Source of the DNA: Sulfurimonas sp.
GTDB taxonomy: Bacteria; Campylobacterota; Campylobacteria; Campylobacterales; Sulfurimonadaceae
Reading direction: 5' to 3'
Assembly: GCA_024513425.1 (NCBI GenBank)
Contig: JANEIH010000002.1
Coordinates: forward strand, 1 to 56,269
DNA: 56,269 nt
A program made the translations under genes and the position numbers. Shown in pieces: positions 143 through 13,678 of the stretch. The notes beneath the pieces are model-generated. The model searched no databases and had not been told where the DNA came from. It saw only the letters and a program-made list of their open reading frames with translations. The number at the start of each line of letters is the position of its first letter. Position 1 is the first letter of the stretch.

Positions 143-649
143 ATGAATATAACTATAAAAAAAATCAAACATTATTTAAAAAAGATACTCTATTTTATTA
201 TTACTATTACAATTGTAACAAATGCTATGAGTCTCTACCGTTCACAATCTCTCGGCAGTGCATCATTAGAGATGCACTCTTTTAAATTGATTGATAATAA
301 TACCTATTCATTAGACGGTAAAAAGCCGATACTTATACATTTTTGGGCAACCTGGTGCCCAATCTGTAAACTAGAAGCTGCAAATATCAACTTTTTAAAT
401 AGATATTATCAAATTATTACCATTGCCGTAAAATCAGGAAGTGATTATGAGATAAAAAAGTATCTCGACAGGTATGATTACCATTTCAAAGTTGTTAATG
501 ACAGAGATGGTTCACTCTCACGCAAGTTTAAAATAGCCGCCTATCCAACAACATTTATTTACGATCCAAAACAGCAACTTTGCTCTAATGAAGTTGGCTA
601 TACATCAACATTTGGACTTTGGCTGCGTCTTTTATGGGCAGATCTCTAG
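143..649 (+). CDS. Membrane-anchored TlpA/ResA-like thioredoxin
   Basis: Probable periplasmic thiol-disulfide oxidoreductase of the TlpA/ResA type. The N-terminus is lysine-rich and followed by a hydrophobic segment (about residues 14-30) that acts as a membrane anchor or signal. The thioredoxin fold follows, with active site WCPIC at residues 71-75 and the cis-proline region AAYPTTF near residue 135. At 168 residues it is a normal length for single-domain TlpA proteins. The next gene starts four bases after its stop, so it is probably cotranscribed with the Bat genes and the cytochrome c. An inferred role is keeping haem-binding or other exported cysteines reduced. The thioredoxin fold is certain; the substrate is unknown. 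Confidence 0.85.
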   Translation: MNITIKKIKHYLKKILYFIITITIVTNAMSLYRSQSLGSASLEMHSFKLIDNNTYSLDGKKPILIHFWATWCPICKLEAANINFLNRYYQIITIAVKSGSDYEIKKYLDRYDYHFKVVNDRDGSLSRKFKIAAYPTTFIYDPKQQLCSNEVGYTSTFGLWLRLLWADL

Positions 650-653
650 CTCT

Positions 654-1556
654 ATGTATAACTTTGAGCTTGAGTATCCTTATGCTTTTGTTCTGCTTTT
701 ATTAATTATCTGTATCTACAAGTGTCCGCTGAGCATTAAAAAAATCATTTTTCCCCATACATCCCTTTTTTCGCAAAAAGCACAATGGTTTAACAGAGAG
801 AAACTCCTCTACTCTCTCATTTTAGCACTACTTGCTACGGCACTCGCATCACCTATTAGCTATGATTCCAAAAGCACGCAGCAGCGAAAAGGTCGAGATC
901 TTGTTTTTGCACTTGATACAAGTGGTTCGATGGATGAGAGCGGATACTCTAGCGATACTACAAGTGAGAGTAAATTCTCCATCTTACAAAAACTCATTAA
1001 AAGTTTTGTAGAAAAAAGGTTTGATGACAATGTGGGTGTTGTTGTATTTGGTTCTTATGCCTTCAGCCCTGTTCCCATTACTTATGACATGCACTCACTT
1101 GCTTATATGCTTGATTTTTTAGAGGTCGGCATGGCGGGCAGTTCCACAGCAATCGGTGACGGTATTGCATATTCACTTGAGTTGTTGCAAAGGTCTCACG
1201 CAAAGAACAAAGTAATCATTCTTATTACAGACGGCTACCAAAACAGTGGAACAACGAAGATAAAAGATGCCATAGATCAGGCAAAAAAACTTCATGTGAA
1301 AATCTACACTATCGGTTTAGGCAAAGCAAGTGATTATGATACAAAACTTTTACAAAGCATAGCTAAAGATACAGGGGGTGTTGCCTTTAGTGCCAAAAAT
1401 GCGGAAGCACTACGAAACATTTACAAAGAGTTAAATGCACTTGAACCAAGTGCAATATGTTCTGAGCACTATTTAAACAAACAGATGCTCTTTACTTATC
1501 CTTTAGCATTTGCCATCCTCCTGCTTTTATATCTGCTTGCAAAGAGGAGAGCTTAA
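654..1556 (+). CDS. batA: BatA-like von Willebrand factor A membrane protein
   Basis: VWA-domain membrane protein like BatA of Bacteroides-type aerotolerance operons. The ATG at 654 is preferred to an in-frame ATG 66 bases upstream, which would overlap the thioredoxin gene deeply; from 654 the protein is 300 residues and opens with a transmembrane segment (about 10-22). A second helix spans about 52-66. The metal-ion-dependent adhesion site DTSGS is at about 88-92, with the further ligands in GSSTAIGDG and LITDG. A C-terminal helix (LAFAILLLLYLLAKRR) closes the protein. The following gene begins directly after its stop codon. The family is linked to oxidative stress and envelope functions, but its molecular role is not settled. 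Confidence 0.85.
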   Translation: MYNFELEYPYAFVLLLLIICIYKCPLSIKKIIFPHTSLFSQKAQWFNREKLLYSLILALLATALASPISYDSKSTQQRKGRDLVFALDTSGSMDESGYSSDTTSESKFSILQKLIKSFVEKRFDDNVGVVVFGSYAFSPVPITYDMHSLAYMLDFLEVGMAGSSTAIGDGIAYSLELLQRSHAKNKVIILITDGYQNSGTTKIKDAIDQAKKLHVKIYTIGLGKASDYDTKLLQSIAKDTGGVAFSAKNAEALRNIYKELNALEPSAICSEHYLNKQMLFTYPLAFAILLLLYLLAKRRA

Positions 1557-3077
1557 ATGACTTTTCTCAATGCTTGGGTACTCTTTGGAGTTATTCCTAT
1601 CTATTTTATCTATAAAAAACATGACCATCCAAACAAGCAGACAAAACTTTTGTATCTGAGTCTGATTTTTATGTTTTTGGCAATGGCACGGCCAGCTTAT
1701 AAAAATGCCTATGTAGAAGAAAATTTCAATTCTCATGACTACATTATAGCCCTTGATGCTTCTTACTCCATGCAGGCAAACGACTTAAAGCCAAGCCGTT
1801 ATGAGCTTGCAAAAGCCGCTATAAAAAAACTGATAAAAGAGCATCCAAAAGACAGATTTACCCTTTTTGCTTTTACATCATCTTCGCTGCTAATATCTCC
1901 ACCTACAACAGATACAGAGATAAGTATGATGGCACTCGATGCACTCAATCCAAAATACATTTTGACAAAAAGCACCAATCTCAAAAATCTTTTCAAAACA
2001 GTTGCAAAGCTTCCAATGAAACAAAAAAATCTGATTATTTTTAGTGATGGCGGCGATGAACATGACATTGCTAGCCTTGCAAAAATTGCCAAGAGAGGCA
2101 GTATCATCCCTTACATTGTAGCAACTGCCACACAAAAAGGTACAGCACTGAAAAAGGATGGAAAGTATATTAAAGATTTTCGTAAATCTATTGTTATTTC
2201 AAGAATAAACCCTATGCTTGTTGATTTAACTAATGCGACAGATGGAAAATATTATCAACTTACTTCACTCAAAGAGATTAACAAACTTTCCAATGACCTA
2301 CAGTCACAGCAGAGTAAAAAAGAGCATATAAAAGTAAAGAGATACAAAGAGCTTTTTGCCCTTCCTTTAATTATTGCATTCATACTCTACTTTTTAGGGA
2401 TTACAAAACTTTCACAACGCATTTTCGTTTTTCTGCCACTTTTACTTTTCTTACCGAACAAGAGCCATGCGCATATGTTGGATTTTTATTATGCACACAG
2501 TGCAAAAACAGCCTATAAAGAGCATAAATTTCATGATGCTGCACGCAATTATGCAAAACTGACACCTTCACAGCAGAGTTACTACAATCTTGCAAGCGCC
2601 TACTACAAAGCCGGCAATTATAAAAAAGCCATAGAGTTTTTCACGCAGATAAAAACCAAGCATAAAGCGCTTAAACAAAAGATTTTTTACAACCTTGGCA
2701 ACTGTGCCGTAAAAATCAAGAAGTATGACAGAGCAAAAAACTACTACATCAATACGCTTGTTCTTGGGGATGATGCCGATGCCCTTTATAATCTGAATCT
2801 ACTCAGAAAATTAAAACTCAAAACGGCTAAAGATATCTCTAAGATGATGCCGCAAAACCAATCGAAGAAGAAAAACAGTAAGAAAAGCAGTGCGGCAAAA
2901 AAATCATCTAATCAATCAGCAAATAAAAAAACAAATGGAGCCGGCAACTCGAAAAAAGGCAAGCAAAAACTTAGCCGTAAACAGGTGAGTAAAAAACGAA
3001 GAGGTGTTTATAAATTCGCCTACAAAGCCTATGAAAAAATCAATAAAGGATATACAGATGAAAAAGAGCCTTGGTAG
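1557..3077 (+). CDS. batB: BatB-BatC-like fusion: VWA domain plus TPR repeats
   Basis: A 506-residue membrane protein. Two N-terminal hydrophobic segments lead into a VWA domain with MIDAS motif DASYS at 67-71 and a further acidic motif FSDGGDEHD. Two transmembrane segments follow at about 267-305 and end in a signal-peptidase-like NKSHAH. The C-terminal part has TPR repeats (about 312-420, with A/Y/G patterns such as YYNLASAYYKAGNY) and then a Lys/Ser/Asn-rich basic tail. In the classic operons batB and batC are separate genes, so this is a fusion. Its stop overlaps the next gene by 20 bases, indicating translational coupling. The start follows immediately after the previous stop. Confidence 0.85.
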   Translation: MTFLNAWVLFGVIPIYFIYKKHDHPNKQTKLLYLSLIFMFLAMARPAYKNAYVEENFNSHDYIIALDASYSMQANDLKPSRYELAKAAIKKLIKEHPKDRFTLFAFTSSSLLISPPTTDTEISMMALDALNPKYILTKSTNLKNLFKTVAKLPMKQKNLIIFSDGGDEHDIASLAKIAKRGSIIPYIVATATQKGTALKKDGKYIKDFRKSIVISRINPMLVDLTNATDGKYYQLTSLKEINKLSNDLQSQQSKKEHIKVKRYKELFALPLIIAFILYFLGITKLSQRIFVFLPLLLFLPNKSHAHMLDFYYAHSAKTAYKEHKFHDAARNYAKLTPSQQSYYNLASAYYKAGNYKKAIEFFTQIKTKHKALKQKIFYNLGNCAVKIKKYDRAKNYYINTLVLGDDADALYNLNLLRKLKLKTAKDISKMMPQNQSKKKNSKKSSAAKKSSNQSANKKTNGAGNSKKGKQKLSRKQVSKKRRGVYKFAYKAYEKINKGYTDEKEPW

Positions 3078-4266
3078 AATACTTCTCCTGCTTTTTCTGG
3101 GGTTGAGTCTTCTCAAAGCAAATAATTTAGCTACATATAAATTGTTTGCAAACAAAACAACACCCTATGAAAAAGAAGCAGTTACCATCACTTTTGAAGC
3201 TACTCAAAAAGACCATACTGATGATATGATGTTTTCTTTACAACCGAAAAAAAGCAAAGATTATAAAATTATTCTGCTTAGTAAAAAGAGTGATAACAAC
3301 CAAAAGCATAATGCCCATACTGTTTTTACCTATCTTTTATTCCCTCTCAAAGTTAAAGCAATACTCGTAAATTTTGATTTTATTATCCATACTGCTAGTG
3401 ATAGTGCTATTGCACAAAGTGTTATCGATGATCATGACGACAGCATTGGCATTAACACGCATGATGCAACATTAAAAATCAAACCTTTATCACTTCAGGT
3501 GAAAAAATTCTCTCACGCTGTTGACTTAGTAGGAGACTTTTCCCTCAAAGAAAAAATACAAGACACAACTATCAATCAATACCAATCACTCAATATTATT
3601 TATACTTTAGAGGGAGAAGGCTATGAGAACAAATCTTTTAAACCAATCCACAAAATTGATGGTGTTACAATGTTTTTTGAGACAAATACTATATACGCAA
3701 AAGCAACAAAAAAGGGGTATAAAATTAAGCGAGAATACATCTATACACTCAGTGCAAAGAACAATTTTACCATTCCCGCAATACATATAGAAGCTTTTTC
3801 AGTAAAAAAGAAAAAATATTATCTTCTCAACATATCTAAACATAGTATTGATGTAACAAAAATAGATACTTCAAAACTTTTAGATAATGAGGAATATCCG
3901 AAAACAAAAAGTTTTATTAATATTCAAGAAATGAAAGAATTTTTTATATATATACTTATATTCCTCAGTGGTTATCTGACGGCTAAATTACAATCAACTA
4001 CTCTAATAAAGAAAAAAACAGATTCTAAAGAGTTGCAGGCACTGAAAAAATCACAAACAGCAAAAGAGCTGCTTTTTGTCATCATAAACAATCATCTTGA
4101 CAATCGTTTTGCAAATGAAGTACAATTATTAGAAGATATAATATATAATGATGCAGACCATAAACTAAACAATATAAAAAATAAAATTATAAAAGGAATG
4201 AAAAATGCGGACTGTTCTTTTTTTACTACTCTTTTCATTAGCACTCCTGCATGCTCAAGAAAATAA
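3058..4266 (+). CDS. batD: BatD-like exported membrane protein
   Basis: Probable BatD-type oxygen-tolerance protein. The ATG at 3058 has an AAAGGA ribosome site seven bases upstream and gives a clean signal peptide (MKKSLGRILLLLFLGLSLLKA). A nearby upstream ATG at 3004 lacks these features. The roughly 300-residue periplasmic part is beta-rich with an N-terminal pattern (LFANKTTPYEKEAVTITFEA) like the immunoglobulin-like BatD repeats. A single helix (about 297-315, FFIYILIFLSGYLTAKL) precedes a cytoplasmic helical tail of about 80 residues. It overlaps both the preceding VWA-TPR gene and the following cytochrome gene. The BatD assignment rests on topology and operon position more than on strong motifs. 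Confidence 0.7.
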   Translation: MKKSLGRILLLLFLGLSLLKANNLATYKLFANKTTPYEKEAVTITFEATQKDHTDDMMFSLQPKKSKDYKIILLSKKSDNNQKHNAHTVFTYLLFPLKVKAILVNFDFIIHTASDSAIAQSVIDDHDDSIGINTHDATLKIKPLSLQVKKFSHAVDLVGDFSLKEKIQDTTINQYQSLNIIYTLEGEGYENKSFKPIHKIDGVTMFFETNTIYAKATKKGYKIKREYIYTLSAKNNFTIPAIHIEAFSVKKKKYYLLNISKHSIDVTKIDTSKLLDNEEYPKTKSFINIQEMKEFFIYILIFLSGYLTAKLQSTTLIKKKTDSKELQALKKSQTAKELLFVIINNHLDNRFANEVQLLEDIIYNDADHKLNNIKNKIIKGMKNADCSFFTTLFISTPACSRK

Positions 4267-4570
4267 ATCTTACCAGAAGGGTGCAAATCTCTACTTTGCA
4301 AATAGCTGTGGAAACTGTCATGGAACAAATGCTGAAGGAAGTAGCTATTACCCAAGGTTGGCAAATCGAAAACAAAAAATACTCATAAAAAAGTTACAAA
4401 ATTTTAAAAACGGCATAGCAAATACGCAAAAACAGGAGATAATGTTTACTTTTGCAAAGCCATTATCACCACAAGATATGAAAGATATTACATACTATCT
4501 GTCACATTTCAAGAAAGAAAATACAGATAAATACAAAGTTGAAGATGATTTACTCGGAGTTGACTACTAG
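4205..4570 (+). CDS. Small periplasmic monohaem cytochrome c
   Basis: A 121-residue class I cytochrome c. The signal peptide MRTVLFLLLFSLALLHAQ is followed by one haem attachment site, CGNCH (about 37-41), and C-terminal helices with a candidate methionine ligand in EIMFTFAKPLS. The pattern resembles small c553-type electron carriers. The start lies 62 bases inside the preceding gene, with AAAGGA just upstream, so translation is probably coupled. Placement behind a membrane thioredoxin and Bat proteins fits an envelope redox function. The last four bases overlap the convergent gene on the other strand, leaving no room for a terminator between the two operons. Confidence 0.88.
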   Translation: MRTVLFLLLFSLALLHAQENKSYQKGANLYFANSCGNCHGTNAEGSSYYPRLANRKQKILIKKLQNFKNGIANTQKQEIMFTFAKPLSPQDMKDITYYLSHFKKENTDKYKVEDDLLGVDY

Positions 4571-5037
4571 TCATTCTCCGCTGTAAAAAATTCAATATAG
4601 ACTTTTTGAAAGTATTTTTTTGCTTTTTCAGCTTTTTGTATTTTTGATTCAAAAATCTCTTTTGATGATGGATAACGCTCTGAATACTCTCTGTACATTT
4701 CACATTTCATATCCATATTTTTAGAAAACTGCTCAATAACCGCTCTGAAATCTTCTGGGGTAGCAACCCACTGCATAAAGTTTTTAAACATACGCTCTCT
4801 GACATCAATAGCAAAAGACTCATCAAGCCCTTCTGCCATTCTTTTTAGATCCCAGCGTGAAAAATAGATACCACTTTTCACCGGTGGCATAATCTCAGCA
4901 TAAATCGCTTTTAAGTAATCTGGGTAATCTTCCGGTGTATCCATATCACAGCTGCCATCTTCACAGGATTGATCCATAACCTGTCTTTGCATCTGCTCAA
5001 ACTCACCTCTAAGTTCATTTAAATCTTTTATATCCAT
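4567..5037 (-). CDS. Hypothetical helical protein ending the molybdoenzyme operon
   Basis: I do not recognise this family. The 156-residue protein is acidic, has no signal peptide or transmembrane segment, and reads as mostly alpha-helical. A cysteine pair (CEDGSC, about 25-30) occurs near the N-terminus and one further cysteine later (MKCEMY). It is the last gene of the molybdoenzyme operon, 11 bases after the AroE-like gene, and has no other transcription context. A cytoplasmic role in maturation or regulation of the enzyme is inferred from position only. Its stop overlaps the convergent cytochrome c stop by four bases. Confidence 0.75.
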   Translation of the reverse strand: MDIKDLNELRGEFEQMQRQVMDQSCEDGSCDMDTPEDYPDYLKAIYAEIMPPVKSGIYFSRWDLKRMAEGLDESFAIDVRERMFKNFMQWVATPEDFRAVIEQFSKNMDMKCEMYREYSERYPSSKEIFESKIQKAEKAKKYFQKVYIEFFTAEND

Positions 5038-5048
5038 AATATTTTCCT

Positions 5049-5474
5049 CTATTTTATAAATTGTTTATATATCTCTTTGGCTAAATCTTCACCACTGAAT
5101 GATCCATTTTTTTCCAAATAAGTGCCGATGAGCTTTTCTCCCTGTCGTACAACAAAATCACATCTATTGTAAACCTGTACAAACTCATCTGCCTCGTCCA
5201 AAAGTTCAACAGCACTCTCTTGATACTCTGATGCAATATATGCCCCGTTAACATGAGATTTTTTCATATTTGAAAGTGTAAAGTAGAAATCATCTTCGCG
5301 GATGTTCATAGGTATCATCATAGCATCTATACCCTCTTCTTTTATGATTTTGTTCAGCATTACAAAAAGAGGATTTGGGCTTGCATGCTCTGCAATAAGT
5401 CCAAAAAGTTTTGTCTGTTTTTGAATCTTATCCTTAGCATTCATTGTATCTATCGCTTGCATATTTTCACTCAT
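5049..5474 (-). CDS. AroE N-terminal-domain-like protein of unknown function
   Basis: The ATG at 5474 overlaps the upstream stop as ATGA and has GGGGAA just before it; an earlier in-frame ATG at 5486 is less likely. Its 141 residues resemble only the substrate-binding domain of shikimate dehydrogenase. LFGLIAEHASPNPLFVMLN mirrors the AroE start (GxPIxHSxSPxxHN), VNGAYIASEYQESAVELLDE mirrors the NVTxPxKE strand, and the end (GEKLIGTYLEKNGSFSGEDL) mirrors DGxLxGxNTDGxG. The catalytic lysine and aspartate positions are not conserved and there is no NADP domain, so shikimate dehydrogenase activity is not expected. Its position among molybdoenzyme accessory genes suggests a ligand-binding or assembly role (inference). 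Sequence similarity is weak. Confidence 0.75.
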   Translation of the reverse strand: MSENMQAIDTMNAKDKIQKQTKLFGLIAEHASPNPLFVMLNKIIKEEGIDAMMIPMNIREDDFYFTLSNMKKSHVNGAYIASEYQESAVELLDEADEFVQVYNRCDFVVRQGEKLIGTYLEKNGSFSGEDLAKEIYKQFIK

Positions 5475-6571
5475 TCTATTCCCCATAATTCTTTCGCTTC
5501 TTCTTCTTCGATACTACATCTTCTACACAGAAGCTCGCCACCCTGGTACGCAAAGAAATTACCACACTCATCACAACGTTTTATATCAAAACGAACAAGT
5601 GTTTCGATCTTTGGTTCAAAAAAGTTTGCAAGTGAGAATGTTGGTCTTAATGTTAATGAATTAGGTTCACAGAGATCATGACAGCTGTGACACTGCACAC
5701 ACGAGAGTGGATTGAAATTAATCACAGAACCCTTTCCATCAGAGCTCAATGCTCCAGTTGGACAGATTCGGTAACACATTTGACAATTTGTACATGTTGA
5801 TTCATCTAAATCTTTTTGAGAGATAAAGCTAATATCTTCTATGGCGATAGTATGAAAATTCTCAGGTACCTTTGCATATTTCATAGCCATAAGCAACAAA
5901 CTTCGTCTATCTGGAATATTTTTTTGTTTAATTTTAACAATATCAACATTCGTAACTTCATGAACTTTAAGAGATGTATCACTTGCTTCAACTTTATTTT
6001 GAAGCTGCTGCTTTATACTAACTGCTTTTTTAAGTCCCTCTTTGGAAAGAAGTTTTCTTCTACTAAGTGCATTTTCTTCTTGAACTTCGGGACTCATATT
6101 CAGCTCTTTAAGCTCTATTGATTTCCCTTGTTCCATTGCTTCTAAAAGAAAATTAACCTCTTCAACTCTCTCTTTGATAAGTGGCAAATTTTTATTCGCG
6201 ATTAAGCACTCTTTACACACCCCAATATCTGCGGTAATAGTGTTTGGTGAAATCAGAGCAATACTTAATAGCTCTTCGACACTCAGTGCTGCAATACAAG
6301 GCAGCTCATTTTTACAGCTTAAAATCTCTAAGTCATTTTCCAAAAAGTTAAAAACATAATTGATAGGCTTGAAATCATCTAACTCATATGCTGCAGTTGG
6401 ACAAACGGCATCACATCCGCCACATCCTACACATTCACTTGGAGTAAAAGAGACAATACTTTCATCAATTTTAATAGTCTCCACAGGGCATACTTCAACA
6501 CACTTGTTGCAAATAGCAAATTTATTGGATGTATGCACACATTTTGAAACATCTAAAGTCAGTAAACTCAT
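5471..6571 (-). CDS. Multi-cluster ferredoxin with C-terminal zinc ribbon
   Basis: A 366-residue soluble iron-sulfur protein with no signal peptide. The N-terminal module has cysteines at 11, 21, 24, 28 and 47, 50, 53, 57 (CNKCVEVCP and CVGCGGCDAVCP), consistent with two [4Fe-4S] clusters. A cysteine-containing middle domain (CKNELPC, then GVCKEC) follows, then a basic helical linker, a second dicluster module (CTNCQMCYRICP and CVQCHSCHDLCEP), and a C-terminal zinc ribbon (CDECG then CRRC). The start overlaps the torD stop as ATGA. It is probably a cytoplasmic electron-transfer or cofactor-assembly partner in the same operon. I cannot name the family; it is too long for a simple ferredoxin. 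Confidence 0.82.
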   Translation of the reverse strand: MSLLTLDVSKCVHTSNKFAICNKCVEVCPVETIKIDESIVSFTPSECVGCGGCDAVCPTAAYELDDFKPINYVFNFLENDLEILSCKNELPCIAALSVEELLSIALISPNTITADIGVCKECLIANKNLPLIKERVEEVNFLLEAMEQGKSIELKELNMSPEVQEENALSRRKLLSKEGLKKAVSIKQQLQNKVEASDTSLKVHEVTNVDIVKIKQKNIPDRRSLLLMAMKYAKVPENFHTIAIEDISFISQKDLDESTCTNCQMCYRICPTGALSSDGKGSVINFNPLSCVQCHSCHDLCEPNSLTLRPTFSLANFFEPKIETLVRFDIKRCDECGNFFAYQGGELLCRRCSIEEEEAKELWGIE

Positions 6572-7218
6572 GCGATATATTTATACTCTTTATCTTTTAA
6601 CGCACTTAAATACTCAAAATCACTTAAGATAAACTCTAAAGCGAAATCAGCCAAGTCAAAATAAAAAGCTGTTCCGGCTTCATTTTTCACATTTAACAGA
6701 TACATAGGTGCCCACTCAACAATATGATCTTTCATAAAACCGTACTGGAGTTGTGCGAGTTGTTTTGCAATTTCTATATCACCCTCTTCAAGTGCCTTAA
6801 GCTCTGCCTTACAAAGCTCATACATAAATTCCAGCTCTACGCCAATATGATCTGCTGCCATTACGCGTGCTTTATCAAGCTCTACTCTAAATTCAAAAGC
6901 ATTAAAAATAGCTTGGACAGGATTGTCTCCACCTGTTTCCATCATCTGGTCTTCTCGTGTATAAAAAGATTCATATGGAATCAAATGCAACAAAAAAAGG
7001 TTAGTAAAATCAACATTGAGATATCTCTCAATCAACTCTTTTCTATCATACTCTTCTCTTTTTTTCCATGTTTCATATGTTGGAAAAAAAGAGAGGATAT
7101 TTTCATCTTCTTCTATTGATTTTAATAGCCCTTCATCCACTTCGCTCATCACGAGCCTTGAGAGTAAAGCATATATATTTATACGAGCAATTTGCTGTTG
7201 TTTTAAATCATTATTCAT
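6568..7218 (-). CDS. torD: TorD-family molybdoenzyme chaperone
   Basis: A 216-residue all-helical protein of the TorD/DmsD/NarJ chaperone family. These bind the Tat signal and apo-form of molybdoenzymes until cofactor insertion is complete. The N-terminal RINIYALLSRLVMSEVDE and the family-like block in the second half (DHIGVELEFMYELCKAELKA) support the call, as does its position directly after the gene for a Tat-exported molybdoenzyme. It is separated from that gene by 75 bases holding a strong hairpin, and overlaps the next ferredoxin gene by four bases. The natural client is the catalytic subunit encoded just upstream. Confidence 0.85.
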   Translation of the reverse strand: MNNDLKQQQIARINIYALLSRLVMSEVDEGLLKSIEEDENILSFFPTYETWKKREEYDRKELIERYLNVDFTNLFLLHLIPYESFYTREDQMMETGGDNPVQAIFNAFEFRVELDKARVMAADHIGVELEFMYELCKAELKALEEGDIEIAKQLAQLQYGFMKDHIVEWAPMYLLNVKNEAGTAFYFDLADFALEFILSDFEYLSALKDKEYKYIA

Positions 7219-7293: not shown

Positions 7294-10200
7294 TTAAATC
7301 TCTTTAATCTCAACTCTGTAAGCTTTTTGACTCGGTTTTACCGGACGTTTAATATGGTATGGACGACGCCATGTATCACCAGTTGCAAGAGGGCGAGTTA
7401 AGTCGTCTCTCCATGCTTTATAAACTTTAAAGTTATTTTCATAGTTTACATGGATATCACCAATCTTTTCATCAGCTCCAGCTTTAGAAAGAATAACTTT
7501 TTGATGCCAACCATGATTACCGGCAATTGGATCTGGATGACAAGGAGCTACAGCATTTTGCCATGCACCAGAGAGTCCATTCCACCAGATATCATCTAAG
7601 TCTCTGTTATACTCTTTAAACTGCCACGCTTTATGAGGATGAATACCTTCAGTTGTTGTCATTGTTCCAACTTTACCATCATTTGTCATAGTAACTTTTG
7701 GAGATCCTAAACTCATAATACCTAGTGAATGTTCAAATCCTGGAATGTTGACAGAATCTTTCAATTTCCAACGCCCAGCATGGTGTGAACACGCAAGAAC
7801 ACCAGGACGAGTTGCCTCAGTCGGTACTGCCATTGCGATAAAATAACCACTTTTGATACCAGTTAAAGTATCTTGAATTTGAACTTTTACAGCATCACCG
7901 CGTTTGATACCAAGTTTTTCAGCATCTTTTGTGTAAATCCATACAGGATTGTGATTTTGTGAAATTTCCATAAGGTGCTTAGAGTTCACAGAGCGTGTGT
8001 GAATGTTATATGGCAGACGATAAATTGTATTTAATGCAAACTCATTATCACCTTTCATATGTTTATGGTGAACCTGAGTTACTAGGTGAACCATTTTATC
8101 ATTCTCCGCCTTGTTTCTAGGATAAATAGGAATAGCGTACTCTGGCCATTTCCATTCAGTTAACCATTCAGAGAAGAATTCAAGTTTCTTGCTTAAAGTA
8201 TGGAAACCTTCAAGAGCTTTGTTGTCTTTAATGATACCGATAGACTCTTCTACCATGCCATCTTTGACCCAAAGTGTTCCAAAACTATCTTTTTTCACTT
8301 CGTCTTTATGGTATTTATGTCCATGTGCATAGACATAATCACCTTCGATTTTCAACTCTTCTTCTTGTGGTTTATACACATTAGTTTTCTCAGTCCAACA
8401 ACCATGATCTCTAATGTATGCATATACCGGATACTCTTCACCTTTGTACATTTTTCTTGCAGTTTCGTTCAATCTTGGTATATTACTCAATGCTGCATCA
8501 AAGTACTCAGGAACTGTTACACAGCGAGATGGATCTTTTTTACTTGCCCAATATTTTCTTACACCTAAAGAACCATCTGGATCTACATGATGAACAATAA
8601 GATTTGGCCAGAATTCACTCTCTTCCCAAACTTCACCAAGACCAAATTTCATATGTGCTTCTAATGTAGCGCGTGTTGGATCTTTTGGTTTCCATCCAGA
8701 TTTTTCAGCTGCAACACGAAGAACCGCTTGACGAAATTCAATACGCTGCTCTGGCTTCGATGGAGTAGACTGCTGGTCATTTCTCTCACCCGCAAGTCCA
8801 ACTGGAAGAACATAATCACAGTACCAGTTTGTTTCAGACCATGTTGGTGACAGGTTGAATGTTAATTCAAATTTATCTTCGCGCTTTAGTGCTTCCATCC
8901 ATCTAAAACCATCCGGATTAATCCATAATGGATTGTGCATTCTTGGAACATACACAGCCATGGATTTAGGAATCTTAAGCCCTTTTTTTGTCCATTTTGC
9001 ATGCCAGTCGTCATCCATCATAATTTGTGGCATCATAAAGCCCATTTCATAAGTTGAAATCGGATATTCCGGCGGCCAAGCAATTTCATTCCACGCATCA
9101 GTTTTTACTGGGTGTTTACCAGCTACTGTAGCTTTATCACCTTTACCTGCAACTGAAATCTCATGCCAGTGGTGCATACCTATTCCACCGATATCTCCAC
9201 GCATAGCACCACGAAGTGCTAACGGTAAGAAACCGGCACGCGTGTTCATCCAACCACCACGGTGACCGATTGCTCCGGCACGCCATAGATAACTAGTGAT
9301 TCTTGCACCAGCCGGGACAAAAAGTTCCCATAACTCATCAAGCTTGTACTCCATACCTTCAAGTTTACACTCTTGGACTACAAACTCTTTTGTATATGGT
9401 GCATACAACTCTTTCATAAGTTCTATGTATGATTCATAACTGTCATCTTTTGGCACTTTTGAAATATATCCATAACCAACCATCTTTTGTAAATAGTCTT
9501 TGTTCGCCATTAGACGATCCCAGTTCAACCACTCTTTTACATAGACATGATCTACTAAATCATTTCCGTCTTTATCTTTTTCATGAACAATTCTATTTAC
9601 AAGATAAAGATAAAGTGCTGCTTCAGTTCCTGGCCATGCCGGAATCCATAAATCTGCCATACCGGCAGAGTTACTCATTCTAGGGTCAATAACAACCATT
9701 TTTGCACCACGCTTACGTGCATCAGCAATATATGCTGCTGATTGTTGGAAGTAGTGTCCTGCATCTGCTGCGTGAGATGATTGTAAGAAAATCAAATCTG
9801 CACTAGCCCAGTCTGGTGAGTTTCTATCATCATTTGCCCACTGGATTGTACCTTCACGAGCACCTGCGGAACAGATGTTTGTGTGAGAGTTGTATCCGTC
9901 AATTCCTAATGATTGAGGAACACGCGGACCAAAACCATTCTCATTTGGACGACCAACATGATACATGATTTGTTTTTTAGAAACTTCATCACCTTTAGCA
10001 AGCGTATCGTGCATTTTCTTACCAATAGCAGCCATTGCTTCATCCCAAGTTACACGAACCCATTTTCCTTCGCCACGCTTAGAACCTGGAGCTCTTTTGA
10101 TTGGGAATGGAATACGATCTGGATCGTACATTTGAGAAGTTACAGCGTACCCTTTTGCACAGTTACGCCCACGAGAACCTGTGTGAAGTGGATTTCCCAT

Positions 10201-10581
10201 ATATTTACGCACTGTAAGCACACCCTTCTCAAAATCATTCTTGTTTACCCATGCAGTAAGACCACATCCTGCTTCACAGTTTGAACAAACTGTTGGAACG
10301 ATTGTATAATCATTTACTTGAATACCGTCTGGGTTTTCAGCACTTCTCACGCCATGACGCTCTATACCACCGCGTTTCCAGTCAGTTCCATCAAGCTCTT
10401 TAAAGCTATCCCACTCTTTTTGTTCAGGATAAAATGAAATTGTTTTTGGAGTATTTGTAAACTTACTGTCTGTTACAGATTCTGCGACAGCATCAGTTGT
10501 AAATACACCCTTTGCTATAGCTACACCAGCAACGCTAAATGCAGCACCTTTTAAAAATGTTCTTCTGCTTTGTAAATACAT
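7294..10581 (-). CDS. Tat-exported molybdopterin oxidoreductase, Psr/Phs/Soe-like catalytic subunit
   Basis: A 1095-residue catalytic subunit of a complex iron-sulfur molybdoenzyme. The N-terminus has a twin-arginine signal (SRRTFLKGAAF, 5-15), so it is exported folded. Cysteines 99, 102, 106 and 141 make the N-terminal [4Fe-4S] site (CxxCx3CxnC). Cys237 in THTNICSAGAREG is the probable Mo ligand, as in polysulfide/thiosulfate reductases and SoeA-type sulfite dehydrogenases. Formate dehydrogenases of this phylum carry selenocysteine in a different context. SSHAADAGHYF and DPRMSNSAGMADLWIPAWPGTEAA also resemble the Psr/Phs/Soe clade. The C-terminal part holds the usual molybdopterin-binding domain. 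A strong AAGGAG precedes the start. A sulfur-compound substrate is likely; its identity and direction of reaction are not readable. Confidence 0.85.
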   Translation of the reverse strand: MYLQSRRTFLKGAAFSVAGVAIAKGVFTTDAVAESVTDSKFTNTPKTISFYPEQKEWDSFKELDGTDWKRGGIERHGVRSAENPDGIQVNDYTIVPTVCSNCEAGCGLTAWVNKNDFEKGVLTVRKYMGNPLHTGSRGRNCAKGYAVTSQMYDPDRIPFPIKRAPGSKRGEGKWVRVTWDEAMAAIGKKMHDTLAKGDEVSKKQIMYHVGRPNENGFGPRVPQSLGIDGYNSHTNICSAGAREGTIQWANDDRNSPDWASADLIFLQSSHAADAGHYFQQSAAYIADARKRGAKMVVIDPRMSNSAGMADLWIPAWPGTEAALYLYLVNRIVHEKDKDGNDLVDHVYVKEWLNWDRLMANKDYLQKMVGYGYISKVPKDDSYESYIELMKELYAPYTKEFVVQECKLEGMEYKLDELWELFVPAGARITSYLWRAGAIGHRGGWMNTRAGFLPLALRGAMRGDIGGIGMHHWHEISVAGKGDKATVAGKHPVKTDAWNEIAWPPEYPISTYEMGFMMPQIMMDDDWHAKWTKKGLKIPKSMAVYVPRMHNPLWINPDGFRWMEALKREDKFELTFNLSPTWSETNWYCDYVLPVGLAGERNDQQSTPSKPEQRIEFRQAVLRVAAEKSGWKPKDPTRATLEAHMKFGLGEVWEESEFWPNLIVHHVDPDGSLGVRKYWASKKDPSRCVTVPEYFDAALSNIPRLNETARKMYKGEEYPVYAYIRDHGCWTEKTNVYKPQEEELKIEGDYVYAHGHKYHKDEVKKDSFGTLWVKDGMVEESIGIIKDNKALEGFHTLSKKLEFFSEWLTEWKWPEYAIPIYPRNKAENDKMVHLVTQVHHKHMKGDNEFALNTIYRLPYNIHTRSVNSKHLMEISQNHNPVWIYTKDAEKLGIKRGDAVKVQIQDTLTGIKSGYFIAMAVPTEATRPGVLACSHHAGRWKLKDSVNIPGFEHSLGIMSLGSPKVTMTNDGKVGTMTTTEGIHPHKAWQFKEYNRDLDDIWWNGLSGAWQNAVAPCHPDPIAGNHGWHQKVILSKAGADEKIGDIHVNYENNFKVYKAWRDDLTRPLATGDTWRRPYHIKRPVKPSQKAYRVEIKEI

Positions 10582-10594
10582 TTATACTTTCTCC

Positions 10595-11497
10595 TTAACT
10601 AAGTGGTAATAACTGTGGAATTATTAACCAAATATGCTTGACTACCCACAATCCTGCGATCGCTAAAATAGCCGCAAGATTTAAAATAGCACTACTTTTA
10701 CTAACACGCGCAAGTGCTATAAGCAACATAGGTAAGATATATGCGACCCACTGCCCAACCCAGAACATTGTTGCATATTCACCGTCACCTTTTACATAGT
10801 GTAAAATTGCTGCAACCTCTTCTGATTTCATAGCACCAAAAATATACTCTGACATATAGATGATAAATGCCATCAAAGCAGATAATCCTAAAATAGCTCC
10901 AAAGAACTGTTTTGTCTCATCACTAAGTTTTGAACCGCCAAGTAAAATAATAGCTGCAGAACCTGAGAGAGTCGCTGCTAAAATCATCTGCACCGCTTCT
11001 GTTGGCATTTGCCATAGCTCACGAGCGGTAGCTTCGGCCATAATTCCCGCAGTGTAAAGTGTTACGGGGATTGCCAAAAGTGTTATCCAAAAAAGCAATT
11101 TGTCATAAGTAGCAGTATCTTTTTTAAAAAAGATAATAACAATCATTAAAGACTCTAAAGCAACAAATATTGAAGCCATCCATGCACCTACTGTGATAGC
11201 AGAAGTCCAGTGAGGATAGAAAAAGATATGCCACATTCTAAATGGTTGGTGCAAATCAGCCAAAGTAAATAATAAGAAAATATTCATAAAGATAAAAGAG
11301 ACTATAAGCGTTGAAGTTCTCAGGCCTTTCATCTCATCAGGATTTTTTCTAAGTAATAAGAAAAGCATAAACACCAAACCGGTACCGATACTCTTCGCCC
11401 ACATATTCATCGTAACATACCAACCCCAAAATATGTCTGGTATCGCCACATCCAAAGTAACCACTGCATTTGTTGCAGCCAAAGTTTCATGTACCAT
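10595..11497 (-). CDS. NrfD/PsrC-type quinone-interacting membrane subunit
   Basis: A 300-residue integral membrane protein with about eight hydrophobic segments and the early pattern FWGWYVTMNMWAKSIGTG of NrfD/PsrC-family subunits. Family members exchange electrons between the quinone pool and the iron-sulfur subunit, without haem. Its start overlaps the stop of the iron-sulfur gene as TAATG, and the catalytic subunit follows after 13 bases. The order Fe-S, membrane, catalytic differs from the usual catalytic-first psrABC order. Confidence 0.9.
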   Translation of the reverse strand: MVHETLAATNAVVTLDVAIPDIFWGWYVTMNMWAKSIGTGLVFMLFLLLRKNPDEMKGLRTSTLIVSFIFMNIFLLFTLADLHQPFRMWHIFFYPHWTSAITVGAWMASIFVALESLMIVIIFFKKDTATYDKLLFWITLLAIPVTLYTAGIMAEATARELWQMPTEAVQMILAATLSGSAAIILLGGSKLSDETKQFFGAILGLSALMAFIIYMSEYIFGAMKSEEVAAILHYVKGDGEYATMFWVGQWVAYILPMLLIALARVSKSSAILNLAAILAIAGLWVVKHIWLIIPQLLPLS

Positions 11498-12132
11498 TAG
11501 TGATGCCCTCCTAGTGGAAGTTTTGTTATATTGTTAAATAAGCTATAGCCTTTTTCTCTTTTTGATGCAAGAGGGTTTAGATTAACTTGGCTTGCTCCAA
11601 CATAATAGTGATGAGGATTCGTGCCTTTTTCTGGTTTACGAACCTGCACATCTCTGTTGTCTTGAATATATCTAGAAATATTTGAAGTTGGATCATCTAA
11701 ATCACCAAAAATATTTGCCTCAACCGGACATGCAACAACACACGCAGGCATCATAGATGATGCGATACGGTGAGCACAATATGTACACTTATCGGCTGTT
11801 TGCGTCTCTGGGTCTATATAGATAGCACCATATGGACAAGCCATAACACAACCGGCACAACCGATACATCTCTCTTTATCAATATTTACAATTCCATTTT
11901 CAAGATAATGAAGAGCGGATACCGGACAGATTCTTTCACATGGAGCATTCTCACAGTGATTGCATCTAAGCGGTGTAAATGTTCTTTTAGTCTCTGGGTA
12001 TGTACCCACATCTACATATTTAACACGGAGTCTCCATGTACTAAGCGGGACTTCATTTTCCACTTTACATGCGATCTCACAACCTTTACATCCCATACAT
12101 AGATGTAAATCAACTAGGAAACCTAATTGCAT
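11497..12132 (-). CDS. Four-cluster iron-sulfur subunit of the molybdoenzyme
   Basis: A 211-residue electron-transfer subunit of the DmsB/PsrB/NrfC type, moving electrons between the catalytic and NrfD-like subunits. Four cysteine groups are visible: CMGCKGCEIACK (12-22), CNHCENAPCERICP, CIGCAGCVMACP and CTYCAHRI followed by CVVACP, consistent with four [4Fe-4S] clusters. No signal peptide is present, so it would be carried across the membrane with the Tat-exported catalytic subunit. AAAGGAG lies six bases before the ATG. It is the first gene of the seven-gene operon, behind a 256-base untranslated region with competing hairpins. Confidence 0.92.
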   Translation of the reverse strand: MQLGFLVDLHLCMGCKGCEIACKVENEVPLSTWRLRVKYVDVGTYPETKRTFTPLRCNHCENAPCERICPVSALHYLENGIVNIDKERCIGCAGCVMACPYGAIYIDPETQTADKCTYCAHRIASSMMPACVVACPVEANIFGDLDDPTSNISRYIQDNRDVQVRKPEKGTNPHHYYVGASQVNLNPLASKREKGYSLFNNITKLPLGGHH

Positions 12133-12388: not shown

Positions 12389-13678
12389 TTATCTCAATCG
12401 CACTCTGACAGAGTGTTCATGTGCAGTAAGACCTTCTGTATTTGCAATGAGGGCACACTCTTTACCTATCTCACTAATAGCCTTTGAACTAAATGAGATA
12501 ATCGAACTTTTCTTCATAAAGTCTTCTACGCTAAGCGGTGAATAGAATTTTGCGGTCCCGCCTGTTGGAAGTGTATGGTTTGGTCCTGCAATATAATCGC
12601 CTATTGCTTCTGGAGTATTGTGTCCTAAGAAAATGGCTCCGGCATGTTTAATGTATGGAAGCAGTTCAAACGGGTTCTGCGTCGCAACTTCAAGGTGCTC
12701 TGGTGCTATCTCATTCATCAACTTAACAGCTTCATCCATACTTTGTGTTACTATGATTGCTCCACGCTTCTCTATCGACTCTCTAGCTATATCCTCACGC
12801 GAAAGATTTTGCAACCATTTTTCGATCTCCACTTGAACTGCATTAGCCAATCTCTGTGATGGAGTAATCAAAATCGAACTTGCCATCTCATCATGCTCCG
12901 CCTGTGAGAGCATATCAATTGCCATATGATTTGGGTTTGCGCTCTCATCTGCTAAGATTCCTATCTCACTTGGACCCGCAATCATATCGATATTTACATC
13001 TCCAAAAACCATCTTCTTCGCAGTTGCCACAAAGATATTTCCAGGTCCGGTAACAACATCAACTTTAGGAATACTTTCTGTTCCGTATGCCAAAGCAGCG
13101 ATTGCTGATGCACCACCTACTTTATAGACCTGCTCAACTCCACAGAGGTGGCATGCCGCCAAAAGAAGCTCATTGGGTTTATTATCTGGTGTCGGTGTGC
13201 ATACAACAATATTTTCCACACCTGCAACCTGTGCAGGGATAACATTCATCAAAAGCGATGACGGATATGTAGCTTTCCCACCAGGAATGTAAAGCCCAGC
13301 AGAGTCAACCGGGGTTACTTTTTGTCCAAGAATTGTTCCATTTGCTTCAGTATCAAACCATGATTGTGGCTTTTGTTTTTCATGATAGACTTTGATTCTG
13401 TCATAAGCAAGATGCAGTGATGCTTTTAATTTTTCATTTAAGCTATCGTATGCTTTACTCATAGACTCCTGAGAAATTTTCAAATCTTCATCACTTTGCG
13501 GAGTCCAGCCATCAAACTTTGCTATATGCAAAAAAAGTGCTCTGTTCTTATCTTTTTTTATCTCATCAATAATATCACCGACTATGCCTGAAACATGGTC
13601 AATATCCATTTTCCCGCGTCCAAGAAGTTCTTCAAATTTTTTATCAAAATCACTATCTGTTGATTTTACAAATATCAT
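12389..13678 (-). CDS. hisD: Histidinol dehydrogenase
   Basis: Catalyses the last two steps of histidine biosynthesis, the NAD-dependent oxidation of L-histidinol to histidine, in the cytoplasm. The 429-residue length is normal. Visible family signatures are TPVDSAGLYIPGGKATYPSSLLMN, the NAD-binding VTGPGNIFVATAKK, DMIAGPSEIGI, the zinc and catalytic region with DMLSQAEHD, and near the end IAPEHLEV and GPNHTLPT. It is the last gene of the hemerythrin-aroK operon and its start abuts the stop of the thioredoxin-like gene. Confidence 0.97.
   Translation of the reverse strand: MIFVKSTDSDFDKKFEELLGRGKMDIDHVSGIVGDIIDEIKKDKNRALFLHIAKFDGWTPQSDEDLKISQESMSKAYDSLNEKLKASLHLAYDRIKVYHEKQKPQSWFDTEANGTILGQKVTPVDSAGLYIPGGKATYPSSLLMNVIPAQVAGVENIVVCTPTPDNKPNELLLAACHLCGVEQVYKVGGASAIAALAYGTESIPKVDVVTGPGNIFVATAKKMVFGDVNIDMIAGPSEIGILADESANPNHMAIDMLSQAEHDEMASSILITPSQRLANAVQVEIEKWLQNLSREDIARESIEKRGAIIVTQSMDEAVKLMNEIAPEHLEVATQNPFELLPYIKHAGAIFLGHNTPEAIGDYIAGPNHTLPTGGTAKFYSPLSVEDFMKKSSIISFSSKAISEIGKECALIANTEGLTAHEHSVRVRLR

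Follow-up and report, generated by a model that had tools for sequence, protein, structure and literature searches.

Why should a shortened relative of shikimate dehydrogenase (AroE) be encoded within a molybdoenzyme operon? The question arises from a stretch of 56,269 nucleotides of Sulfurimonas sp. DNA (contig JANEIH010000002.1, hereafter the window), in which a sequence-only reading had noticed an AroE-like protein at 5049–5474. The frame is confirmed on the minus strand, with its first ATG at 5486; its product is referred to here as X.

Organization of the locus

The operon is on the minus strand, and is transcribed in the order FeS subunit, NrfD, MoA, TorD, polyferredoxin, X and D156. The first three genes encode a TtrB/NrfC-like FeS subunit with multiple 4Fe-4S motifs (11497–12132), an NrfD/PsrC-like membrane subunit (10595–11497), and MoA (7294–10581), a catalytic molybdopterin oxidoreductase of 1095 amino acids possessing a twin-arginine signal (SRRTFLK) and a 4Fe-4S motif. 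These are followed by a TorD/NarJ-type chaperone (6568–7218), identified by its match to PF02613, and by a polyferredoxin of 366 amino acids (5471–6571), with four cysteine sets that fit 4Fe-4S clusters and a C-terminal CxxC-x12-CxxC. X spans 5049–5486 when read from the first ATG (145 amino acids). An alternative ATG at 5474, giving a 141-amino-acid product, overlaps the polyferredoxin TGA as ATGA, as had been reported for this gene pair, and the TorD and polyferredoxin genes overlap in the same manner. D156 (4567–5037), the final cassette gene and a member of a conserved family, lies 11 bases downstream of X.

Several neighbouring genes are also of note. Upstream of the FeS-NrfD-MoA operon is hisD (12389–13678, minus strand), a position kept in many Sulfurimonas, even when the chaperone cassette has been relocated. 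On the plus strand, positions 143–4570 hold a thioredoxin-like gene, BatA/BatB/BatD-like von Willebrand-domain and TPR genes, and a cytochrome c, convergent on the cassette; this Bat-like cluster adjoins the cassette in several relatives too.

When compared to the PsrA/PhsA equivalog models, MoA scores best with PhsA, at 112.6 bits for a cut-off of 694, short of a whole-protein match, and its closest PDB chain, 2vpw, corresponds to residues 95–349 only. By sequence, MoA is thus related to PsrA/PhsA, but far under any equivalog cut-off. PSR homologues have been described in all sequenced Sulfurimonas (PMC4584964), and are not equated here with MoA. Within the genus, two classes of MoA are found: in one, identity is 77–93% along the entire protein; in the other, it is about 63% for residues 1–948, and the C-terminal part differs (about 1130 amino acids). 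The polyferredoxin scores below the NapF model cut-off (36 vs 102 bits).

X is a member of the AroE superfamily

As a single sequence, the window X is matched by the NCBIfam AroE models with E values of 9e-7 to 1e-6. For PF08501 it reaches 24.6 bits, under the 27-bit gathering cut-off, whereas two orthologues (G418 and G030) score 31.8 and 29.0. The X family profile aligns to AroE with 98.3% probability in hhalign, and matches PDB AroE chains with an E value of 8.7e-20. The closest relatives are found in Sulfurimonas metagenome genomes, with X 90% identical.

AlphaFold2 models were obtained with a pLDDT of 84.8 for the short X of the window, and 91.6 for a longer form described below. In Foldseek, the top matches of both models are shikimate dehydrogenases and the related 5-ketofructose reductase, with E values of about 1e-8 to 2e-8 for the short model and, over the full two-domain fold, about 5e-15 for the long one. 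The predicted fold, which had been set beforehand as one of two tests of the sequence-only reading, is that of the AroE substrate domain. A chance resemblance is ruled out by the AroE models, the predicted structure, hhalign and the PDB profile matches taken together: X belongs to the AroE superfamily by homology, and its models and profiles assign it the AroE substrate-binding domain fold.

The TorD/NarJ models (PF02613/TorD) do not match it, nor do NapD or NapF; only the AroE models do, along with a chance-level TetM-type match (E 0.07). An alpha-glycerophosphate oxidase was the top match of a single-sequence PDB search with X, and was taken as chance.

X is not the shikimate dehydrogenase of this organism. 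A separate, intact aroE (263 amino acids, 80.6 bits) is present in the window's genome, and a separate aroE was found in 18/18 other genomes checked, which rules out X as the true aroE or as its sole copy. A phylum-scale profile search using a diverse X alignment returned mostly frames of canonical AroE size (about 260–290 amino acids) in other families of the order, and the family was therefore not extended by that search.

The active site is lost, and other residues are conserved

I used an alignment of 108 X and 18 AroE sequences to evaluate residue conservation. The AroE controls were picked by the HSxSP and NxTxPxK patterns, and it is for this reason that they show 18/18 conservation at those columns; the X sequences were not so picked. 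In the window X, Q89 (5220–5222) occupies the column of the catalytic lysine, and E125 (5112–5114) that of the catalytic aspartate, in agreement with the earlier observation that both are replaced. Across the family, the lysine column holds Q, V, T or others, with lysine in 1/108 sequences, aspartate is found in its column in 13/108, and the two occur together in none of the 108. The HSxSP and NxTxP motifs are lost, and the HSxSP-like start previously described for X is not retained. Judging from these residues, X can no longer work as a shikimate dehydrogenase, and such genes should not be annotated as encoding one.

Other positions are conserved in X. E87 (5226–5228), in the column of the NxTxP proline, is glutamate in 94% of X sequences, and D110 (5157–5159), in the column of the VNT asparagine, is aspartate in 92%; on this alignment, both substitutions appear as new conserved features of X. 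A signature specific to X, N61-I62-R63-x-D65-D66 (5289–5306), is unconserved in the AroE sequences, and is followed by further conserved X residues, F69, T70, N73 and S77.

AroE-fold domains are ligand-binding modules, and the two acidic replacements, conserved at AroE motif columns in >90% of X, would suit a small-molecule sensor or regulator, in which a metabolite or an ion bound in the former shikimate pocket would control how the molybdoenzyme system is expressed or how active it is. I consider this unlikely, as there is no DNA-binding or signalling domain among the family-model matches of X, and the gene is located inside a chaperone and ferredoxin cassette, translationally coupled to the ferredoxin gene.

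A shortened protein that has lost its catalytic residues could also be what is left of a duplicated aroE, decaying as a pseudogene. However, pairwise dN/dS within short-form clades is 0.036–0.167, with synonymous sites near saturation, indicating purifying selection and therefore a functional, constrained protein. This rules out a pseudogene, and the conservation of X-specific residues, as well as the persistence of X across the order in a constant place, flanked by the ferredoxin gene and D156, makes such a remnant extremely improbable.

The Rossmann domain has been lost repeatedly

The window X has no NADP-binding Rossmann domain with its GxGGxxA motif, as had been pointed out. A search of the genus revealed, beyond that earlier observation, that congeners have a two-domain X: most Sulfurimonas orthologues are AroE-like over both domains, with open frames of ~250–280 amino acids (two-domain proteins of 250–267 amino acids in most species), and lie in a cassette of the same make-up (TorD, polyferredoxin, X, D156). 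When the two forms are aligned, the short X has a gap over the entire Rossmann domain, and the match picks up again at the C-terminal helix (EDLAKEIYKQFIK against EELSSAIFEFLEKK). The short/long alignment places the junction of the missing domain approximately at residues 126–132 (5091–5111), and both the alignment and AlphaFold, which positions it confidently, identify residues 133–144 (5055–5090) as the C-terminal helix kept from the two-domain form. The C-terminal segment of E. coli AroE is part of the substrate domain, and the excision thus takes out one domain cleanly. X had been described as a stand-alone AroE N-terminal domain; this is correct in that the substrate domain lacks its Rossmann partner, but the C-terminal helix is retained as well, and the stand-alone condition is derived, a two-domain ancestor having been reduced when its Rossmann domain was excised from within the gene. 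An assembly truncation or a frameshift is ruled out, since the same short length and conserved flanking genes are found in >20 genomes.

Short X proteins also exist in other families, with 156–165 amino acids in f6, 152–158 in f17, 116–132 in f18 and 170 in f5, and in two genera (g23 and g26) of f1. When mapped onto a quickly built tree of the adjacent ferredoxin, in which some forks are weak and some branches long, X changes between short and long states at least seven times; these changes are read as repeated losses because regain of the domain is implausible. Such repeated natural deletions identify the substrate domain as the part of the protein that does the work. In long X, conservation is higher in the N domain than in the Rossmann domain (0.64 vs 0.48), but the same holds for true AroE (0.63 vs 0.50), and I have therefore not counted this contrast as evidence.

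These data bear on whether X could be a cytoplasmic redox partner, with a long form that bound NAD(P) and exchanged electrons with the polyferredoxin, and that later became a docking protein as the Rossmann domain decayed. The X gene directly follows that of the polyferredoxin, and a GxGxxA-like motif is kept in 9/62 forms of 200 amino acids or more; a GAGxxA is present in the long X of family f4 (L145). Yet most long Sulfurimonas X have a degenerate nucleotide motif, the domain is gone from the window clade and others, and there is no conserved catalytic lysine, making this role improbable.

X is linked to a molybdoenzyme

To what extent X is associated with molybdoenzymes can be seen from its genomic neighbourhood. 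X, TorD, ferredoxin and D156 occur together at 91 of the loci examined, and X was found without the other three at two loci only, both in family f23. These two homologues (L159 and L161, 217–236 amino acids) adjoin a dnaJ-like gene outside the cassette; the genomes with this unlinked X hold MoA elsewhere. The full operon, from the FeS and NrfD subunits through the molybdoenzyme, TorD, polyferredoxin and X to D156, recurs in several Campylobacterales families. In Sulfurimonas with a short X (L033–L060), MoA is adjacent at 24/28 loci, the contigs of the remaining four ending before MoA. In those with a long X, MoA is near the cassette at 7/52 loci, some of the loci being on short contigs, and most of these genomes have the four-gene cassette elsewhere than MoA. 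In the three such genomes that were read (L141–L143), no TorD gene is found beside the unlinked MoA operon.

The association holds at the level of genomes. Within the genus, 110 of 135 genomes possess both X and MoA, four MoA only, five X only (all <85% complete), and 16 neither (Fisher p 4e-13, the kinship of genomes being ignored). In the order (399 genomes), MoA is found in 92/96 X genomes, and a further 43 were classified as having MoA only; many of these, when inspected, were seen to have a short X below threshold, at the same operon position. The proposed association of X homologues with molybdoenzyme genes is thus borne out: many lineages have the genes linked in an operon, and where they are unlinked they still occur in the same genomes.

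X is nonetheless absent from some intact MoA-TorD-ferredoxin-D156 operons, in one genus of f6 (L177, L178, L190) and in f21 (L180), indicating that it is accessory rather than indispensable. Its co-occurrence with MoA might be expected if X were a subunit, structural or regulatory, of the mature molybdoenzyme complex. I view such a subunit as quite improbable, given that X has no apparent Tat or Sec signal while MoA has a twin-arginine signal, and that most long-form Sulfurimonas X are linked to TorD and unlinked from the structural genes.

A possible role in molybdoenzyme maturation

Pseudoenzymes derived from core biosynthesis enzymes are known, and the reading I favour, with a probability of roughly 0.6, is that X is one of these: an AroE-family pseudoenzyme that has become an accessory protein of a PsrA-like, Tat-exported molybdoenzyme, and that probably takes part in its maturation in the cytoplasm. 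TorD, polyferredoxin, X and D156 track the exported molybdoenzyme, and are therefore most simply seen as a maturation cassette. X itself is probably cytoplasmic, as its sequence contains no apparent signal. From the gene context and the dead active site, I infer the maturation role and the binding partner of X. The earlier suggestion that the AroE fold may serve as a binding or assembly factor is, on the same grounds, the one that fits best.

In this proposal, a dead shikimate dehydrogenase paralogue would have been recruited early in the Campylobacterales as an accessory of the PsrA/PhsA-related, Tat-exported molybdoenzyme. The TorD-type chaperone, polyferredoxin, X and D156 would together form a cassette, probably cytoplasmic, acting on MoA before its export, in FeS or Mo-bisPGD loading or in Tat proofreading. 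The former substrate domain may act as a binding module, with the NIRxDDxxFT...S segment and the two new acidic residues as its conserved features. The NADP-binding domain would have become dispensable and been cut out on several occasions; what is left is the substrate domain, together with the C-terminal helix in several lineages.

TorD-type proteins and the NapF ferredoxin are established maturation factors of the cytoplasm: the former bind Tat-exported molybdoenzymes and proofread them, and NapF, which has four clusters, assists FeS loading into NapA (PMC10609526, PMC12998232). TorD, DmsD and NarJ would act at the same step as that proposed for X, and a TorD-type gene is part of its cassette, but their fold is unrelated and X has no match to these families. 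NapF and NapD offer a precedent, with a Tat-exported molybdoenzyme matured by small, unrelated proteins of the cytoplasm, one of them a ferredoxin with four clusters (PMC10609526); in contrast to X, NapD has a ferredoxin-type fold, and that review mentions neither an AroE-fold protein nor "shikimate". The MOLY cluster of Desulfobacterota (MolyABC and a TorD-type chaperone) likewise combines an exported molybdopterin oxidoreductase with a TorD chaperone, but comprises two oxidoreductase subunits and one chaperone, with no AroE-like protein described in the passages concerned (PMC12998232). A 2023 review noted that Psr-type operons contain no chaperone gene, and that an unidentified chaperone encoded elsewhere may be needed (PMC10609526). 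For the Psr-related MoA, the chaperone cassette with X, where it is unlinked, provides a specific candidate that can be tested.

Compared to AroE and its paralogues (YdiB, HI0607, Ael1, 5-ketofructose reductase), X has the substrate-domain fold in common, and in its long form the full two-domain fold. It differs from AroE in having neither the catalytic Lys/Asp pair nor NxTxP, nor usually the nucleotide motif, in the absence of the Rossmann domain from short X, and in being found in a molybdoenzyme cassette. Searches of openly accessible papers found no description of an AroE-like protein in molybdoenzyme maturation, or of an AroE-family pseudoenzyme in such a role. The present case provides a dead AroE paralogue in a molybdoenzyme cassette, conserved across an order and with repeated domain loss. 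More tentatively, the cassette could be a dedicated multi-protein maturation machine for exported sulfur-respiration-type molybdoenzymes of the Campylobacterota, with the AroE fold as a client- or cofactor-binding module, repeatedly trimmed to its substrate domain.

D156, for which no convincing relative was found in Pfam or PDB (a RhoGEF match was taken as chance), is conserved across the Campylobacterales as the last gene of the cassette, and is kept even where X is lost. In one genome bin (G019) the cassette is present in two copies (L053 and L055), which may correspond to a duplication or to mixed strains.
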